Assembly (NCBI GenBank): GCA_016930935.1
Contig: JAFGFT010000008.1
Location: 1 to 64,000, forward strand
DNA from: Dehalococcoidia bacterium
GTDB taxonomy: Bacteria; Chloroflexota; Dehalococcoidia; GIF9; AB-539-J10
DNA: 64,000 nucleotides
Reading direction: 5' to 3'
Of the stretch, positions 30,846 through 38,376 are shown one piece after another; positions within the stretch are counted from its first letter, which is position 1; the number at the start of each line of letters is the position of its first letter. The position numbers were made by a program, and so were the translations under genes. Below the pieces are notes generated by a model that ran no database searches, was not told the DNA's origin, and was given only the letters and a program-made list of their open reading frames with translations.

Positions 30846-30931
30846 CCTTCTCATGTGTCCCGCATGGTGCTCAACACCGCACATCACCAGTGGTATACTT
30901 GCGCGGCCATTACGGCGGAGGTGAATCGTTC

Positions 30932-31855
30932 ATGAGAGTTGCGGTAGTGGGCATCGGTGGTGTTGGTGGGTACTACGGAGGCAAACTGGCGTATGCCTAT
31001 CCACAGGGCAGCGGACACGAGGTCATATTCTTCTGCAGAGGGGCGCACCTGGATGCAATCAAGCGGAGTGGTCTGAAGCTTGATTCCGCCGACGGTGAAA
31101 TCACTGCTGTTCCTTCGCTGGCGACGAACTCAGCATCAGACATCGGGGTTGTGGATGTCGTGTTGTTGTGCGTTAAGGGCTACGACTTGCTGCAGACGGC
31201 CCGTTCTGTGGCGTCAATCATTGGGCCCGAAACAGTGGTCATTCCTCTTGGCAACGGTGTCAACAACGACGAAATCGTGAGAAGCGCATTGGAGTGTGGA
31301 GATGTGCTCAACGGCTGTGTCTACATTTCGACCCACATTGAGGCTCCCGGTTTCGTACAGCAAACCGGAGGGAGTCGCAAGCTCTTTTTCGGACCTTCTG
31401 AAGGCGATGTCGAACCGTACAGGGTGGTGGAGAGATTTCTTGTGGGGGCCGAAATCGATGCTGAGCTGACGTCTGATGTGCAGGAAAAAGTCTGGTCGAA
31501 GTTCGTCTTCATCGGTCCCGTGTCAGGAGTCACCTCTCTGCATGGTGTGTCAATCGGCCAGATGCTGGCTCAGCCGGACCTGAAATCTACCCTGTCGCAG
31601 ATGATGCATGAAGTGGAGACAGTCGCTTCAAGGAAGGGCGTTTGTCTGCCTCCGGACATGGTAGAGAAAGCGCTCGCTACAGGGGCGTCATTTCCATTCG
31701 ATACGAAGTCATCTATGCAGCTCGACGTTGAGAACGGGCGTAAGGCGGAACTGGAGACGATGCTCGGATACGTCGTCGCCGCAGGCCGCGACTTGGGTGT
31801 TGAAACACCCGCACATGTGAACATCTACGAGGCCCTTCGGTCGCGCACGGCCTAG
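30932..31855 (+). CDS. panE: 2-dehydropantoate 2-reductase (ketopantoate reductase family)
   Basis: A 307-residue NAD(P)H-dependent reductase. The Rossmann motif is VVGIGGVGGYYGGKLA at the N-terminus, followed by CVKGYDLLQTA, PLGNGVNND and the catalytic Lys in EKVWSKFVFIGPVSG. It would reduce ketopantoate to pantoate for coenzyme A synthesis, although the family also includes other 2-oxoacid reductases. The start at 30932 has GGCGGAGGTG upstream, and a TATACT -10 box lies further up. Confidence 0.85.
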   Translation: MRVAVVGIGGVGGYYGGKLAYAYPQGSGHEVIFFCRGAHLDAIKRSGLKLDSADGEITAVPSLATNSASDIGVVDVVLLCVKGYDLLQTARSVASIIGPETVVIPLGNGVNNDEIVRSALECGDVLNGCVYISTHIEAPGFVQQTGGSRKLFFGPSEGDVEPYRVVERFLVGAEIDAELTSDVQEKVWSKFVFIGPVSGVTSLHGVSIGQMLAQPDLKSTLSQMMHEVETVASRKGVCLPPDMVEKALATGASFPFDTKSSMQLDVENGRKAELETMLGYVVAAGRDLGVETPAHVNIYEALRSRTA

Positions 31856-32025: not shown

Positions 32026-32706
32026 ATGAGTGATATCTCGGAATCCCGACTTGTTCCTTGGCAGGTCGCGAGGGCATCACACGTGCTGAGGACCAGGGGA
32101 CCACGGGAGCTCGCCCTGAGGGCAGTGAGGTACCTGAGGGACCAGTCTCGACACGTGTACTACTTTGCCTGCTACGTCATCTATGAGATTGATACGGCTG
32201 ACTACATACGGGGCCTTGAGGCTCCTTCAATAGACGGACTCAAGGTATATGTACTGGAGAGCGAGAGTGATGTACGGCGATTGGTGGATGAGGGATATGA
32301 GGACCTGCGACGCGTTGTGAGACCTGCGACACGATGCTTGCAGGGAGGCGCGGTGGGTTTCTGCGCCTTCGTCAATCGCGATGTGGCTCACATCGCATGG
32401 GTGGGCTTCACCAGAGAGGCGCAGCGGATATTGGATGTGGTTCCGTACTTCGTTGACTTTGACCATGGAGAGGCCTGCTGGGGAGGGTCTTTCACGGCAG
32501 AACGATTTCGCAATCTGGGTATCTACCGTCACGTCATGGCGTGGCGACTGCGCTATTGCCACGAACGGGGCTATCGTGTCTTGGTGGATGCGACGAGGGT
32601 GGATAATGCACCGTCGCTGCGCAGTCAGTTCACGTACAATCCACGAACACGTGCATTCTACCGCTATAGACGCTTTCTACGCTGGTGTGACTGTACGGAG
32701 ATGTGA
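32026..32706 (+). CDS. GNAT-like paralogue 1 of tandem array
   Basis: A 226-residue protein and first of four adjacent paralogues. Shared blocks: an N-terminal Arg-rich region with RxRGPxxLxxR, then VLESESDVRRLVDEGYEDL, GGAVGFCAFVNRDVAHIAWV, VPYFVDFDHGEACWGGSF and RFRNLGIYRHV. The last matches the acetyl-CoA pyrophosphate loop of GNAT enzymes ([R/Q]xxGxG/A), here RNLGI. The end is RRFLRWCDCTEM. Its acyl acceptor is unknown. The ribosome-binding site is weak. Confidence 0.6.
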   Translation: MSDISESRLVPWQVARASHVLRTRGPRELALRAVRYLRDQSRHVYYFACYVIYEIDTADYIRGLEAPSIDGLKVYVLESESDVRRLVDEGYEDLRRVVRPATRCLQGGAVGFCAFVNRDVAHIAWVGFTREAQRILDVVPYFVDFDHGEACWGGSFTAERFRNLGIYRHVMAWRLRYCHERGYRVLVDATRVDNAPSLRSQFTYNPRTRAFYRYRRFLRWCDCTEM

Positions 32707-32943
32707 CCCAGGGTCCACGTGGGTTTCTTGTTGGGATGCGCTACCTGACAGTGTCAGCTTGACGCAAGAGTGAATGAGGATGCCACTCAAATCTGTGATA
32801 CGAGAACACGAGTTGACTGTGGGCAGGTCGCGGTTCCGTCGCGTTCATTCGGGATTGCCTCGGACACGAGAGCATCTGTCGCTTCGGTCCTCCTGACGAA
32901 GCACTGAGGATTCGGTGTGACCGACCGCGGAGGGACGTAGTTC

Positions 32944-33642
32944 ATGTGGCTGAGACGGCGAGTAGTCCGTATCTTCAAGGATGAGGGAGTGACCGGACTT
33001 GTGCGGGCGGCAGTGGCCATGGTGCAGCGCAGCGCAAGGCGAATTGCTTTCATTGGCGACTTCTATATCTATCGCTACCCGGTGCCTCTGACTGACGTTC
33101 ATATTCCCGAATCGCGTATTGAGGGTGTTGAGGTGCATGTGGTGGAATCTGAACGTGATATAGACACTCTTGTCGCAGATGGCTACGAGGACCTGCGTTT
33201 CGTGATGGTAGAAGCAGGGTCACGGTTGAGCGTGGGAGCCGTCGCCATCTGCGCATTCGTGCACAAGGAGTTCGCCTATGTTGGTTGGGTTGCTTTGTCT
33301 GAACCCGCGAAGCGCGCATTCGACCGCTTGCCGTACTACGTAGACTTCGAAGCTGGAGAGGGTTGCACAGGAGCAGCGTGGACGACTCCGCGATTTCGGA
33401 AGGCTGGCTTGTACGCCCATGTGTTCGGTCACGAGTTGCGCTACCTGCGTGAGGCTGGCAGAACGGTCTGCTGCAACGCAATAGGTACGGGCAACGTTGC
33501 TTCTCAGCGTGGTCAGGCACGATATGGTGCGCAGTTGTGTGCTGTTGGCCGCATCAGGAGGTTCTTGGTATGGCGCAGATGGGTTATGACGCCGGCGGAG
33601 GGATCTTGCCCATCCTTGGCCTCCACGACGATGCCCCGATAG
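32944..33642 (+). CDS. GNAT-like paralogue 2 of tandem array
   Basis: A 232-residue paralogue of the gene at 32026: VVESERDIDTLVADGYEDLRF, GAVAICAFVHKEFAYVGWVAL, SEPAKRAFDRLPYYVDFEAG, GCTGAAW and the loop RFRKAGLYAHV. C-terminal RRFLVWRRWVMTP matches the family end WTE-P. GGAGGG lies before the ATG. The 237 bases separating it from paralogue 1 hold no recognised feature. Identity to its neighbours is only moderate, so the duplication is old. Confidence 0.6.
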   Translation: MWLRRRVVRIFKDEGVTGLVRAAVAMVQRSARRIAFIGDFYIYRYPVPLTDVHIPESRIEGVEVHVVESERDIDTLVADGYEDLRFVMVEAGSRLSVGAVAICAFVHKEFAYVGWVALSEPAKRAFDRLPYYVDFEAGEGCTGAAWTTPRFRKAGLYAHVFGHELRYLREAGRTVCCNAIGTGNVASQRGQARYGAQLCAVGRIRRFLVWRRWVMTPAEGSCPSLASTTMPR

Positions 33643-33673
33643 TATGGTGGTATGATGTTTCGCACGATATGCT

Positions 33674-34432
33674 ATGAGCACGGCGTTGCCCAATACACAG
33701 AGTAGTGAAGAGATGAAGTCCAGGCGGCCCCGTGAACGTTCTGCCCTGTGGGTGGCTCCCGGTGATGGATTCCTGTCCATCATTCGACGGGCGAGGTCAC
33801 TTGTGAGGAGTGAGGGGTTCGGGGGACTGCTGCGCGGGCTTGGACGTTTCGCTCGTACATTGACACAGAAGGTGTATCGAAACGAACGGTTTCGTCTGTA
33901 TGAACTGCGTGTCGACGAAGCCTCGCGAATTCCGCTGAGCGCCCCTTTCGAAGGAGTGGAAATACACGCGATTGAGACTCGCGAAGACGCGCGGAGACTT
34001 ACGGCGAAGGGGTACGAAGACATCGTGCTCGCCGACCCTCACCTTGTAGCAAGGCTGGACAGCGGTGCGGTGGCGCTGTGTGCGTTTGTGAACCGTGAAT
34101 TCGCAAGCATCGATTGGTTGGCGTTTTCGGAGGATGCCAAGCGCTCTTTCGATAGTATTCCCCGCAGAGTCCCGTTCGAGAACGGTGATTGCTATACGGG
34201 TGGCGCCTTCACCGTCAGGCGACTGAGGGGAAGGGGAATAGCCACATACAGGCTGAGTTGGGCTATGGGCTACCTGCGCGACCGCGGCTCTCACATGCAT
34301 CGCGCTACCATTTCGGACCGCAATATTCCTTCGCAGCGAACTGTTGAGAGACTGGGCGGGAGTTTTGGCACGGTGGGCCACCTGCGCCGATTTCTGTGGT
34401 GGACCAGTTGGACCGAGACGCCGGTAGCGTAA
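33674..34432 (+). CDS. GNAT-like paralogue 3 of tandem array
   Basis: A 252-residue paralogue with a longer polar N-terminus (about 35 extra residues). ATG at 33713 is an alternative start. Shared blocks: SLVRSEGFGGLLRGLGRF, AIETREDARRLTAKGYEDI, GAVALCAFVNREFASIDWLAF, VPFENGDCYTGGAFT and a canonical acetyl-CoA loop RLRGRGIATY. It ends RRFLWWTSWTETP. It starts 31 bases after paralogue 2 and is likely cotranscribed. Confidence 0.6.
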   Translation: MSTALPNTQSSEEMKSRRPRERSALWVAPGDGFLSIIRRARSLVRSEGFGGLLRGLGRFARTLTQKVYRNERFRLYELRVDEASRIPLSAPFEGVEIHAIETREDARRLTAKGYEDIVLADPHLVARLDSGAVALCAFVNREFASIDWLAFSEDAKRSFDSIPRRVPFENGDCYTGGAFTVRRLRGRGIATYRLSWAMGYLRDRGSHMHRATISDRNIPSQRTVERLGGSFGTVGHLRRFLWWTSWTETPVA

Positions 34433-34618
34433 GAGTTTTTGCGGGTACTCAGTCCTTGCGCTTCGCGCCGGGAATGCTTCCTTCAGGTGGGGCTTTGACC
34501 CTCGGCGCGCTCAGGATGAGGGTTGTTTCCTCGCCATCATGATTGACACGCCGAACGGGCTGCGGCACAATCGCGAAGCACTCACATCAACGAATGAATC
34601 GAGGAGTCCGACATACAT

Positions 34619-35323
34619 ATGCTGAAGACTGCACTTGTTCGTGCCATGAGTATAGTGCGGACAGAGGGCCCGCTAGCACTGTTCAGACACGCTGTGGGAT
34701 TCAGCGCGGTCCTGAGCAGAGGCTTCTATCGAAAACTGGACGTGTATCTCTATCGACATGCTCTTGTTGAGCGTGACGGTGCCGCATATCTCCCTCGTCT
34801 CGATTCACACGAGTTGAGAGTGGTTGAGTCCAACGAACAGGCCGAGCAACTGGTGTCCGAAGGATTTGAAGACTTCCGACAGCTGTTTCTCTTCTCGCGG
34901 CGCAATCTCGCGTATGGAGCCGTGGCTTTTTGCGTGTACGTCGACAAGAGACTGGCGCACATTGGCTGGGTGGCGGTTGACGAGAAGGCGAAGGCGTACG
35001 TTGACGCAGTGCCGTTTCGTGTCGCGTTTGACCAGGGAGAGGCGTGTACTGGGGGGAGTCATACGTTTCCCCGGTATCGCGGCAAAGGTTTGATGGTCTA
35101 CGGCTACTATGTAAGACTGGAGTACCTCAGGGTCAAGGGGTTCACGGCCAGTCGCAACTCGGTTGAGGTGCACAATGTGGCATCTCACCGCGCGCACGCG
35201 AAATTCTCCCCCGAAATCACGGGTGTCGGTTGGTATAGAAGGGTTCTTGGCTGGTCGCGCTGGACGGAATCTCCGTTCCCTGGCGGTCCAGTAGTAGGTA
35301 TACCGCCTCCGTGGGATAGGTAG
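34619..35323 (+). CDS. GNAT-like paralogue 4 of tandem array
   Basis: A 234-residue paralogue: MSIVRTEGPLALFRHAVG at the N-terminus, VVESNEQAEQLVSEGFEDFR, GAVAFCVYVDKRLAHIGWVAV, VAFDQGEACTGGSHTF and the loop RYRGKGLMVYG, then RRVLGWSRWTESP. GAGGAG precedes the ATG. The CelD-type acyltransferase gene begins within 5-10 bases of its stop, so the two are almost certainly cotranscribed. Confidence 0.6.
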   Translation: MLKTALVRAMSIVRTEGPLALFRHAVGFSAVLSRGFYRKLDVYLYRHALVERDGAAYLPRLDSHELRVVESNEQAEQLVSEGFEDFRQLFLFSRRNLAYGAVAFCVYVDKRLAHIGWVAVDEKAKAYVDAVPFRVAFDQGEACTGGSHTFPRYRGKGLMVYGYYVRLEYLRVKGFTASRNSVEVHNVASHRAHAKFSPEITGVGWYRRVLGWSRWTESPFPGGPVVGIPPPWDR

Positions 35324-35327
35324 AGAA

Positions 35328-36542
35328 TTGCATGTGAGCGCAGAAGAGGCATGTCTGGGATACGCTGTTCGTGTTGTCACGAAGCTGGACGGACTCAGAG
35401 CGCTGTCGTCTGAATGGGAAGGTCTGTGGCAACATTGTGTTGGCCATCGCACCCCGTTCCTTTCGTACGAGTGGGTGTTGCTGTGGAGCGAACACTACCA
35501 GCTTGATGGCAGCCTGCGTACTCTTGTCGTGACGCGCGATTCGCGTGTTGTGGCCATAGTGCCTCTCACGATGCATCGCTACTCCATCGGACCGTTTAGC
35601 CTGAACGTGGTTGAGACGCCGGGGGAACAGAGTCGCAATCTGATAGGACTCGTTGTTCCGGGTATGGAGCAGGAGCTATCTGGCGTCATTGCGGGATTCA
35701 TAGATCAAGTATTCCTGCGTAAGGGCGTGTGCCTTCGGCTCTTGCTCGTGCCTTCCGATTTGCCGCTCCTCGCTGCACTGGCAGGAGCTTTTGCCGCCGA
35801 TGGTCACGGTGGGCGTATTCGGAACGTAGCGTTCCAGCCCGCGCCATATGCTCCCCTCCCCATCAGCTGGCAGGACTATCTGGATGCGCTTTCACGTTCA
35901 AGGCGCAAGATGCTGCAACGTGCAGCCACGTCACTTGGGATGCATCACGATGTCTGCTATGAGACATGCGGCGCTACTGAGATTCGTTTTGGGATGGAGG
36001 AACTCTACCGCATGCATCAGGAGCGTTGGCATAGCAGCGGAATACGCGGTCTCTTCGCGGACAAGAGGGCACGTGAGTTCCATACCTCTGTCGCTTTGGC
36101 GCTTGGGCGAAGGGATCTCATTCGCGTCTATCGAATGTGTATCGACGGTGAACCGGTCTCCATACACTTTGTCGGCGTTCTGGACGGTGTTCTGTACCTG
36201 ATACGGTCAGGCCGGGATATTGCCTGGGCCGACTATGATGTGGGACATCTTCACGAGGGTGATTGTCTGAAGAGGGCAATCATGGAAGGATTGAGTGAGG
36301 CCGATTTCTTGCGTGGCGCTGAACCGTACAAGTACTACTGGACGAAGCAGTACCGTATGTACAATCAGTTAGTGGTGAGTGGACGTGTCGGCCCCGTCAT
36401 GATGCCGGTCGGCCTTGTGTGGATGTGGCTGAGAATCTCGCAGTTTCTTGAGCATCGTCATACTCCTCGGGAGTTGGCGGCAATCTTGCGGATACGCAGG
36501 CGTGAAGCAAGAGAGCGGAAGGCGATGCGTGTCGATGTATGA
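35328..36542 (+). CDS. CelD/BcsL-type acetyltransferase (Acetyltransf_6)
   Basis: A 404-residue double-GNAT-type protein. WEGLWQHCVGHRTPFLSYEWVLLW at the N-terminus and a C-terminal half with SRRKMLQRAATSLG, FMEELYRMHQERW-like, GEPVSIHFVGVLDGVLYL and AIMEGLSEADFLRGAEPYKY match the CelD/BcsL family linked to extracellular polysaccharide modification. TTG at 35328 or GTG at 35334 may start translation. It closes the four-gene GNAT-like array and suggests a shared envelope or glycan acylation pathway, which is inference. Confidence 0.8.
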   Translation: MHVSAEEACLGYAVRVVTKLDGLRALSSEWEGLWQHCVGHRTPFLSYEWVLLWSEHYQLDGSLRTLVVTRDSRVVAIVPLTMHRYSIGPFSLNVVETPGEQSRNLIGLVVPGMEQELSGVIAGFIDQVFLRKGVCLRLLLVPSDLPLLAALAGAFAADGHGGRIRNVAFQPAPYAPLPISWQDYLDALSRSRRKMLQRAATSLGMHHDVCYETCGATEIRFGMEELYRMHQERWHSSGIRGLFADKRAREFHTSVALALGRRDLIRVYRMCIDGEPVSIHFVGVLDGVLYLIRSGRDIAWADYDVGHLHEGDCLKRAIMEGLSEADFLRGAEPYKYYWTKQYRMYNQLVVSGRVGPVMMPVGLVWMWLRISQFLEHRHTPRELAAILRIRRREARERKAMRVDV

Positions 36543-36655: not shown

Positions 36656-37486
36656 CTATTCTGTGGCGCCATTCATCTTGACACCCCTCGCCGCGATGAA
36701 CTGCGCAGTGAGCAGGCGGGTGGGGCTTCGATCCAGCGACTCGGATGCCTTCAGAAGGTGACGAATCAAGTTCTCGTGACCGGGAAGTCGAAGGCGCCGT
36801 AGCAATCGAACGCCGGCCTTCGCGAAGTAGCGGGAGTTGTGGATGATGGCTGTTGTGGCGGTGACGGTGAGGCCTGCATCTTGTAGAGCTTGTGCAAGTC
36901 CGCGTGCCGTGAGCGTCTTTCCAATGAAGTAGGGATTCTTTCCCATCGCAATCCAGGTTCTGAAGAGTGGTTCTGTAAGGTTGGTTGGATTGTCCATGGT
37001 GATGATGAGCACGCCGCCCGGACGAAGTACTCGCGCAAGTTCGCGTATGCTTCGCGTGATATCGCCCGCTTCACTGAAATGGTCGAGCGTTGAGTCAGAC
37101 ACGATGACGTCGAAGGTATCGTCTGCGAATGGCAGCGTTCTTGCGTCTCCCACGGTGTAGGAGGAGGTGCTTGAGCGAAGCATATTCTCGTTGTACTTCG
37201 CTGCGTGAAGCAGAGTGGATGAGATATCCATGGAGACAAGTCGTTCACTCTTGCCGATGCTCCATGAGAAAGCGCGTTCAGGGCACGTTGCCTCGGCAAA
37301 GACATCGGTCTTCCGAACGAGAGGGTTGCCGGTTTCGGGTGCCCACGCGCGGCATAGAGCGAGATGAACCCGTTGGTATTGTGCTGCCAGGAGTGGGTCC
37401 ATGGAGAAGGCGCCGTCCTGGATTCGCTCTACCGTGAGGTTCCAGCGCTGCACATCGGTGCCGTCGACTGTGGGAGATTGTGGCAT
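36656..37486 (-). CDS. SAM-dependent class I methyltransferase
   Basis: A 276-residue methyltransferase of the Methyltransf_11 type. SAM contacts: VSMDISSTLLHAA (motif I/II region) and GDARTLPFADDTFDVIVS, with ELARVLRPGGVLIITMDNP as motif III. The first glycine-rich loop is unusual (ERAFSWSIGKSERLVSMD), so the classical GxGxG is not intact. Acceptor unknown. It starts two bases after the stop of the BKACE gene and is thus in the same operon. Confidence 0.8.
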   Translation of the reverse strand: MPQSPTVDGTDVQRWNLTVERIQDGAFSMDPLLAAQYQRVHLALCRAWAPETGNPLVRKTDVFAEATCPERAFSWSIGKSERLVSMDISSTLLHAAKYNENMLRSSTSSYTVGDARTLPFADDTFDVIVSDSTLDHFSEAGDITRSIRELARVLRPGGVLIITMDNPTNLTEPLFRTWIAMGKNPYFIGKTLTARGLAQALQDAGLTVTATTAIIHNSRYFAKAGVRLLRRLRLPGHENLIRHLLKASESLDRSPTRLLTAQFIAARGVKMNGATE

Positions 37487-37488
37487 TG

Positions 37489-38376
37489 CTAGCGTTCCGT
37501 GTCGGTAGTGCGCCCGTAGGCTCCGTGGCCGGACTGAAGATTCAGTAGTCCGCGCAACTCTGATGGCGCCATTACTTCCCGTTCGTTGGCTGCGGCAAGC
37601 GTGTGAATGCGGGTGAGCAGGTCAATGTTGCGGGCGAGCCGCCGGTGCTTCATGTCATAGAATAGCTGGTCCTCGAGGCCTACGCGCACGCCTCCACCCA
37701 TTGCGACTGCCACAGAGTTCATTGGCAATTGTGCGTTGCCGATGCCCGCCAGGCTCCAGTAGGATTGAGGTGGGAGGTCGCGAATCATCATGCCTGCGTG
37801 GAGCATGTCAGCCTGTGCGGAAGCGATGTTGCCAAGCAGCAGGTTGAAATAGTGGGGTGGTTCAATCAGTCCCTTGCTTTCGAGGTACTTCGCGTAGTTG
37901 ATCATTCCTGCATCGAAAGCTTCGAGTTCGGGCAGGATGCCCCGCTTCTTCATCTCAGCAGCAAGTCGCCCTATCATGGAGGGGGCATTCATGCTGTCCT
38001 GTCCGCTGAAGTTCATGGAACTGAGCGTGAGACTGCCCATGTCCGGCTTCAGACTGCCCTCCAGTGACAATGGCTCCGCCCTCTTCTCAAATTCATGGAC
38101 AAGCCTGCCACTGAGAGAGACTGCGAGTACCAGGTCGGGCGCGTATCTCCGTATCCCTTCAACGATGCGCCCGTACGTGCCGGAATCGTGGGCAGGTTCA
38201 CCTGTGGCTTCGTCCCTGGCATGGAGGTGGACCATCGTGATGCCCATCTCGAATGCCTGGTGCACATCTTCAACTATCTCTGCAATACTAAGCGGAGCAT
38301 GGGGCGTCATCTCCCGCGTGGGAATCATTCCCGTGGGAGCGAAGTTAATTATCAGGGGTATAGTCTGTTCCTGCAT
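37489..38376 (-). CDS. BKACE-family beta-keto acid cleavage enzyme (DUF849)
   Basis: A 295-residue Zn-dependent TIM-barrel enzyme. It begins IPLIINFAPTGMIPTREM, with the metal-binding HLHARD motif, LPELEAFDAGM and GGGVRVGLEDQLFY. The family condenses a beta-keto acid with acetyl-CoA to give acetoacetate and an acyl-CoA; the founding member, Kce, acts on 3-keto-5-aminohexanoate in lysine fermentation. No other lysine-fermentation gene is near, so the true substrate is open. It is cotranscribed with a methyltransferase. Confidence 0.88.
   Translation of the reverse strand: MQEQTIPLIINFAPTGMIPTREMTPHAPLSIAEIVEDVHQAFEMGITMVHLHARDEATGEPAHDSGTYGRIVEGIRRYAPDLVLAVSLSGRLVHEFEKRAEPLSLEGSLKPDMGSLTLSSMNFSGQDSMNAPSMIGRLAAEMKKRGILPELEAFDAGMINYAKYLESKGLIEPPHYFNLLLGNIASAQADMLHAGMMIRDLPPQSYWSLAGIGNAQLPMNSVAVAMGGGVRVGLEDQLFYDMKHRRLARNIDLLTRIHTLAAANEREVMAPSELRGLLNLQSGHGAYGRTTDTER

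Follow-up and report, generated by a model that had tools for sequence, protein, structure and literature searches.

A tandem GNAT array beside a BKACE gene in Dehalococcoidia, possibly part of an acylation module for envelope glycans

Genes at the locus

The window analysed here is a stretch of 64 kb from a Dehalococcoidia genome (G000). A sequence-only reading of it had described four adjacent genes of one architecture, followed by a CelD gene, and both the open reading frames and a whole-genome search show that these four tandem homologous genes (32026–35323) and the CelD gene are real. All five lie on the forward strand. The tandem genes encode GNAT-fold acyltransferases, assigned by homology for copy 1 (32026..32706, 226 aa), copy 2 (32944..33642, 232 aa) and copy 3 (33674..34432, 252 aa as listed, with the real start possibly at about 33755) and by the fold of an AlphaFold2 model for copies 2 and 4 (copy 4: 34619..35323, 234 aa). 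A fifth copy is found on a separate contig of the same genome (G000:C6). Copy 4 shares 33–37% identity with copies 1 to 3 in the whole-genome search (E = 4e-41 to 9e-33), which agrees with the earlier view that the duplicates are ancient rather than recent. The CelD/BcsL-type acyltransferase gene (35328..36542, with a TTG start) begins 4 bp past the stop of copy 4, within a few bases as had been noted. Its product matches Acetyltransf_6 (PF13480) at 5.4e-23, with 82.2 bits against a cut-off of 22.

The GNAT copies are less easily classified. Matches to the Pfam family Acetyltransf_1 stayed below threshold for copies 1, 3 and 4, copy 2 had no Pfam match at all, and no NCBIfam family claimed any of the copies above its cut-off. 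The shared motifs that had been listed for the four proteins are present, but looser than claimed: copies 3 and 4 have GYEDIV and GFEDFR in place of GYEDLR, GExCTGG becomes GDCYTGG in copy 3, and at the C-terminal WTExP copies 1 and 2 read CTEM and WVMTP. The first 50 residues carry a net positive charge in most copies, and the N-terminus is predicted to be helical, with hydrophobic moments of 0.54–0.80 in the window copies.

Just outside the array and the CelD gene (32026–36542), and convergent with them, lies a pair of genes on the reverse strand (36656–38376). The pair consists of a SAM-dependent methyltransferase (36656..37486) and, 2 bp upstream of it, a member of the beta-keto acid cleavage enzyme family (BKACE, PF05853; 37489..38376; 2e-77, 260 bits against a cut-off of 24.8). 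This pair, which the sequence-only reading had passed over, is the neighbour that best explains the array. Upstream of the array, an ApbA/PanE-type ketopantoate reductase gene (30890..31855, forward strand) is a syntenic neighbour in G000, G001 and G005. We rejected it as a core part, as it is conserved in the syntenic loci of the genus only and was not seen at the locus of G076, a genome from another family of the order. No glycosyltransferase or flippase gene was found adjoining the array in the window, and the STT3 genes of the genus are on contigs other than that of the array. STT3 was also rejected as a partner, being near a GNAT gene in G076 only and widespread across the order regardless. 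Scans for promoters and terminators did no better than on shuffled sequence. The chromosomal neighbours of the locus are kept across genomes; an origin from a phage or mobile element was rejected, with no match in phage records and a flat GC content.

Fold and CoA loop of the GNAT copies

The AlphaFold2 models of copy 4 (pLDDT 90.9; top VIA Z 13.6, to MshD 1ozp) and copy 2 (pLDDT 88.9; Z 13.5 to MshD) predict a complete GNAT fold. Structure prediction thus found the proposed fold for these two copies, and homology places copies 1 and 3 in the GNAT superfamily as putative members. In this the copies resemble known GNAT N-acyltransferases such as MshD, VipF and the glucosamine N-acetyltransferase 5kf1, from which they differ by belonging to an unclaimed family, by an extra basic helical N-terminus and by their tandem arrangement with CelD.

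The acetyl-CoA loop (Q/RxxGxG/A) is intact in copies 3 (RLRGRG) and 4 (RYRGKG). Its first glycine is replaced in copy 1 (RFRNLG) and copy 2 (RFRKAG), so the description of a weaker loop in these two copies was correct. The suggestion that they act as scaffolds found no support. The first glycine is variable in relatives too (N, K or Q), with KFRQRG in the single-copy member of G076. Since the loop varies throughout the family, and a full fold is predicted for copy 2, we rejected a non-catalytic role for copies 1 and 2.

Conservation of the array in Dehalococcoidia

Next, we consider how the array is distributed. Conservation of the array with CelD in related genomes was a check set beforehand, and such arrays were found within one Dehalococcoidia genus, with four tandem copies in G000 and G005, two in G001 and a single, chimeric copy in G006. 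An orthologous CelD gene terminates the array in all four genomes, and in each of them it overlaps or nearly touches the last GNAT gene. The distribution of the array is therefore not random. Copy 1 pairs in the tree with a G001 protein (G001_a, support 0.88), and copy 4 has CelD-linked orthologues in G001 and G005 (clade support 0.92). The chimeric copy of G006 suggests that the array contracted by recombination between copies. Conservation in the four genomes partly supports the idea of an acylation system, of which the combinatorial element is hypothetical; copy number varies between genomes by duplication and recombination.

The methyltransferase has counterparts beside BKACE in G001, G005, G006 and G076. 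PaaK-like ligase genes lie beside the arrays of G005 and G006, and the G076 locus unites GNAT, BKACE, methyltransferase and PaaK-like ligase genes in a different order, together with STT3/AglB, flippase and GT2 genes. At the G076 GNAT locus there is no CelD gene; in the other family of the order, the core does not include CelD. A distant GNAT in G004 is found among NeuB and UDP-GlcNAc 2-epimerase genes.

A BKACE orthologue (E<1e-60) is present in five of the six genomes of the order that carry the GNAT family (G000, G001, G005, G006 and G076) and in none of the remaining 78 (84 in total). Four of the five co-occurring genomes belong to one syntenic genus, so few independent events within the order underlie this count.

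The BKACE clade and its neighbours across phyla

A scan of named genomes with the single protein P0004 gave no match, and the aligned GNATs diverge too far to serve as a query. We therefore used BKACE as the query across phyla. In 66 of 80 clade loci, taken from 204 BKACE loci and phylogenetically uneven (about half are from Bacteroidota), an acyltransferase gene is directly adjacent to BKACE. By comparison, about 1,040 non-adjacent ORFs of BKACE loci yielded seven profile matches. The adjacent partner is a related GNAT in 43 loci and a PglD-like hexapeptide sugar acyltransferase, carrying a PglD_N domain, in 23. Most of the GNAT genes share the strand of BKACE and overlap it or lie at most 20 bp away. 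The Dehalococcoidia and Flavobacteriaceae GNATs are related in a profile comparison (93.6% probability, E 2e-7). The linkage of acyltransferase and BKACE could also stem only from the use of acetyl-CoA by both enzymes.

The surroundings of these pairs often include genes for sugar building. At L169 the order is DegT aminotransferase, WbqC, hexapeptide acyltransferase, BKACE and GT2, with similar sets in other loci, and a sugar aminotransferase or glycosyltransferase gene is nearby in G076, L169, L172, L145, L098, L101, L112 and L161. The Flavobacteriaceae BKACE–GNAT pairs, carried for example by the cultured marine flavobacteria Robiginitalea, Flagellimonas and Arenibacter, showed no obvious common glycan neighbour in their partly annotated neighbour clusters. 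The PglD-like enzymes, akin to the PglD/NeuD/VioB-type N-acyltransferases of surface-glycan sugars, hold a place equivalent to that of the GNATs but belong to the hexapeptide left-handed beta-helix family. This suggests that the two partner types fill the same role by non-homologous replacement.

The window BKACE is distant from the characterised Kce (131 bits), and shares PF05853 with the BKACE/Kce enzymes (2y7d, 3no5; DUF849). Aligned to 2y7d, the residues H50, H52, E235, E152, R231 and D236 are invariant among 82 BKACE sequences. We take the metal ligands to be His, His and Glu, following the structure work on Kce; on this alignment the ligands and the catalytic Glu, Arg and Asp are present. 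The clade differs from Kce in having Phe154 at the position of Tyr145 in all 82 sequences, and in the loci examined it lies beside acyltransferases, not lysine-fermentation genes. A lysine-fermentation reading (Kce–Kdd, CoA-transferase) had been suggested by small paired upstream genes; we rejected it, the pair at L169 being WbqC and the hexapeptide acyltransferase. The active-site tyrosine is stated to be present in all BKACEs, and BsfD, which likewise has Phe there, does not catalyse the usual cleavage (PMC12871164). Because of the replacement of Tyr145, we do not claim cleavage activity as certain.

A possible acylation module

That BKACE, methyltransferase, GNAT and ligase genes are linked in these genomes is a direct observation. 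In many phyla BKACE adjoins the gene of an acyltransferase, frequently with sugar-building genes around it; for this reason the gene set probably places unusual acyl groups on a cell-surface sugar. The association thus favours the acylation role, possibly on an envelope glycan, that the sequence-only reading had proposed. We give about even odds to the array being the amplified acyltransferase part of a BKACE–acyltransferase module that acylates an envelope glycan. In such a module, BKACE would make or alter a short acyl-CoA, its product probably being an acyl-CoA, and PaaK/FlxY-like ligases would activate further acids in some genomes. The GNATs and CelD would transfer acyl groups from CoA to amines or hydroxyls of the glycan or a lipid-linked precursor, with the methyltransferase tailoring the acyl group or the sugar. 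This direction of acyl flow, and a glycan as acceptor in the Dehalococcoidia organism, are what we infer from the gene neighbourhoods. The GNAT gene would have duplicated in tandem in the genus and then diverged, and each copy therefore probably differs in donor or acceptor.

More tentatively, supplying the donor may be the dedicated task of this BKACE clade, in an acylation module that is widespread but undescribed. The enzyme would make an unusual acyl-CoA by cleavage or, considering the Phe substitution, by C-acylation as in BsfD, and the neighbouring GNAT or PglD-type N-acyltransferase would pass the group to surface amino sugars. The Dehalococcoidia array would then diversify this module, its tandem GNATs together with arrays of tandem ligases yielding several acyl decorations. 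In the papers covered by our literature search, no description emerged that joins BKACE or DUF849 to acyltransferases or to polysaccharide genes. Exosortase/PEP-CTERM exopolysaccharide loci contain acyl-CoA ligase, FemAB and acyltransferase genes, and so may be comparable in combining ligases with several acyltransferases. They differ in that neither exosortase nor PEP-CTERM genes were seen among the annotated neighbours here.

The product could instead be an acylated lipid or secondary metabolite, with membrane-bound GNATs acylating an amino-lipid or small molecule through basic amphipathic N-helices and BKACE and PaaK-like ligases supplying the acyl-CoAs. The predicted helices with their mostly positive first 50 residues, the resemblance of the ligases to FlxY of flexirubin synthesis and the absence of glycan genes adjacent to the window array are consistent with this. 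However, hydrophobic moments as large as those found are not specific for membrane binding, the same BKACE clade lies beside PglD-like sugar acyltransferases, DegT, WbqC and GT2 genes across phyla, and the G076 homologue is accompanied by STT3, flippase and GT2; we consider a lipid or metabolite product rather improbable. It is less probable still that lineage-specific acetyltransferases of small molecules or proteins expanded by chance beside an independent, conserved metabolic pair. The array and BKACE are indeed convergent and not co-transcribed in the genus, and the extra copies elsewhere (G000:C6, G005:C38) have no BKACE among the genes seen there, but the GNAT–BKACE link recurs in G076, in L116 and also in about 40 Bacteroidota loci, whose genes touch or overlap on a single strand, and order genomes without the GNAT also lack the BKACE orthologue. 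A defence array of resistance or toxin GNATs, acetylating drugs or tRNA, is very improbable, since the aminoglycoside acetyltransferases among the fold matches (Z ~11) are placed no higher than many other GNATs, we noticed neither an antitoxin-like gene nor a mobile element adjoining the array, and the locus has constant chromosomal neighbours and no match in phage records.

If the acylation module is real, an entire clade of BKACE (DUF849) enzymes, which records name after the lysine-fermentation enzyme, would gain a function. The module would tie these enzymes to glycan acylation in many phyla, among them cultured Flavobacteriaceae in which the role is testable. For the uncultured Chloroflexota lineage studied here, it would mean a surface chemistry diversified by duplication and recombination of acyltransferase genes.

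A tandem GNAT array and its history

Four tandem GNAT-like ORFs (copies 1-4, 32026-35323, forward strand) and a CelD gene (35328-36542, forward strand) were found where the sequence-only reading had placed them (32026-36542). Searching the window's own genome (G000) with copy 4 recovered the other three copies (E = 4e-41 to 9e-33, 33-37% identity) and a fifth on a small contig (C6). CelD is a clear Acetyltransf_6 protein (Pfam, 5e-23), whereas the Pfam GNAT signal was faint in copies 1, 3 and 4, the Pfam scan of copy 2 gave no match, and an NCBIfam search matched none of the GNAT copies. AlphaFold2 with the family alignment gave confident models of copy 4 (pLDDT 90.9) and copy 2 (pLDDT 88.9), for both of which the closest solved structure is the GNAT mycothiol synthase MshD (Z 13.6 and 13.5, respectively), with further matches to VipF and a glucosamine N-acetyltransferase (Z about 12.6-13.3). 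A basic helical N-terminus precedes the GNAT core (residues 2-36 in copy 4). As copy 2 is modelled with a GNAT fold, the suggestion that copies 1 and 2 are scaffolds is not supported.

The search for the array covered six further genomes of the genus. The G005 array consists of four tandem copies and ends in CelD; upstream of it lie a PaaK-like ligase and an additional GNAT. Two copies precede CelD in G001 and a single one in G006, where the locus is close to a contig end. The only copy in G004 is a distant one, among NeuB and UDP-GlcNAc 2-epimerase genes, and the search found no family member in G002 and G003. CelD orthologues (E<1e-89) are confined to G000, G001, G005 and G006, and in all four the last GNAT and CelD overlap or almost touch. 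The copies next to CelD in G000, G001 and G005 form one clade (support 0.92) and copy 1 groups with a G001 copy, G001_a (support 0.88), so at least some duplications are older than the species. The G006 DNA aligns continuously to G005 (~91%) through BKACE (beta-keto acid cleavage enzyme), a methyltransferase, CelD and the 3' part of the last GNAT, and then skips ~2.6 kb to the 5' part of the first copy and the ligase. The single G006 GNAT is therefore chimeric, joining the first copy to the last. Barring a collapse in the assembly, this points to an array that shrank when its copies recombined. About 20 kb away from the G001 array lies a decayed copy (L048:72-1505) that lacks a start codon and is read in the frame of a SpoU rRNA methylase.

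BKACE adjoins acyltransferases across phyla

What the sequence-only reading missed is the pair directly beside the array and convergent to it, a methyltransferase (36656-37486) and a BKACE (37489-38376; PF05853, 2e-77). Both have orthologues at the equivalent position in G001, G005 and G006. Among 84 genomes of the order, BKACE at E<1e-60 occurs only in these, G000 and G076, from another family, and all five also contain the GNAT family. In G076, the GNAT lies between a polysaccharide-type flippase and BKACE, at a locus with a PaaK-like ligase, two methyltransferases, a GT2 and an archaeal-type STT3 oligosaccharyltransferase. Compared with the genus loci, this shows that GNAT, BKACE, methyltransferase and ligase recur as a set with shuffled gene order; CelD and ApbA seem to have been added at the level of the genus.

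The BKACE alignment, run against named genomes, yielded 80 loci, about half of them from Bacteroidota and hence not independent, of which 66 have a directly adjacent acyltransferase (a GNAT of the profile in 43, a hexapeptide acyltransferase in 23). The same profiles matched 7 of about 1,040 non-adjacent ORFs. GNAT adjoins BKACE in many Bacteroidota loci, and most GNAT neighbours are on the BKACE strand, overlapping or <=20 bp away. The Flavobacteriaceae and Dehalococcoidia GNAT profiles align with 93.6% probability (E 2e-7, 118 columns), against 68% over 52 columns for a Dehalococcoidia Acetyltransf_9 GNAT as a rough control; by profile comparison these GNATs are homologous, although orthology is not claimed. 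In L110, one more locus from Dehalococcoidia, BKACE is followed by a different GNAT, of the Acetyltransf_9 family. The hexapeptide protein scanned has a PglD N-terminal domain. Locus L169 reads DegT sugar aminotransferase, WbqC, hexapeptide transferase, BKACE and GT2, and similar gene sets occur in L098, L101, L112, L145, L161 and L172.

Three loci with neither neighbour have ~360-aa genes directly after BKACE (L118:10882-11961, L120:3584-4660, L119:1074-2168), possibly a third partner type; the Pfam scan found no match for the L118 and L120 proteins. In one Dehalococcoidia MAG and about nine Bacteroidota loci, Flavobacteriaceae among them, the BKACE-GNAT pair is followed by a Mg-chelatase-like ComM/YifB gene (e.g., L116:11623-13284, L124:11511-13046), through either chance or a common insertion site. 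Plasmid pRSE21 of Salmonella Karamoja encodes a BKACE (L177:13992-14861) that shares 46.6% identity with that of the window. Its operon also contains RibD-like, GTP cyclohydrolase II, methyltransferase, riboflavin synthase and MFS genes, an arrangement reminiscent of flavin-analogue biosynthesis.

The BKACE-acyltransferase association is the key new fact. Our literature search found no description of it, which is not proof of novelty.

A possible acylation route

BKACEs convert a beta-keto acid and acetyl-CoA to acetoacetate and a shortened acyl-CoA (PMC12871164). All 82 sequences of the BKACE clade keep the metal ligands as well as the catalytic residues Glu, Arg and Asp. Unlike Kce, the lysine-fermentation enzyme, which has Tyr145, the clade has Phe at this position, as does BsfD, which catalyses acetyl transfer in place of cleavage (PMC12871164); the acyl product therefore cannot be named.

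Related PaaK/FlxY-like ligases are themselves arranged in tandem, away from the GNAT array: four in G000 (G000:C20:34541-40310), where the ligase relatives lie on contigs other than that of the GNAT array, and six, one of them partial, in G005 (G005:C107:8771-16770); G001 has two in tandem (G001:C8:16181-18439). In the G000 array, a single 983-aa ORF holds two ligase domains, and the genes flanking the ligase arrays look housekeeping (BipA, SpoU). Archaeal-type STT3/AglB oligosaccharyltransferases (TIGR04154, above cut-off) were found in 8 of the 11 genomes of the order that were searched (e.g., G000:C19:35938-38226, L047:2812-5184, L093:5058-7397), some with flippase and glycosyltransferase neighbours, which suggests protein N-glycosylation in these bacteria.

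The acylation system proposed from the sequence finds partial support: BKACE and acyltransferases are associated across phyla and sugar genes accompany them at other loci, but the window has no glycan genes beside the array. That two unrelated acyltransferase folds take the same place beside the BKACE clade suggests that BKACE supplies the substrate of the acyltransferase, an acyl-CoA. This acyl-CoA would pass to the neighbouring GNAT or hexapeptide enzyme. The ligase arrays, though at other loci, would fit several acyl donors, and the acceptors may be amino sugars, given the DegT, PglD-type partners and glycosyltransferases at other loci.
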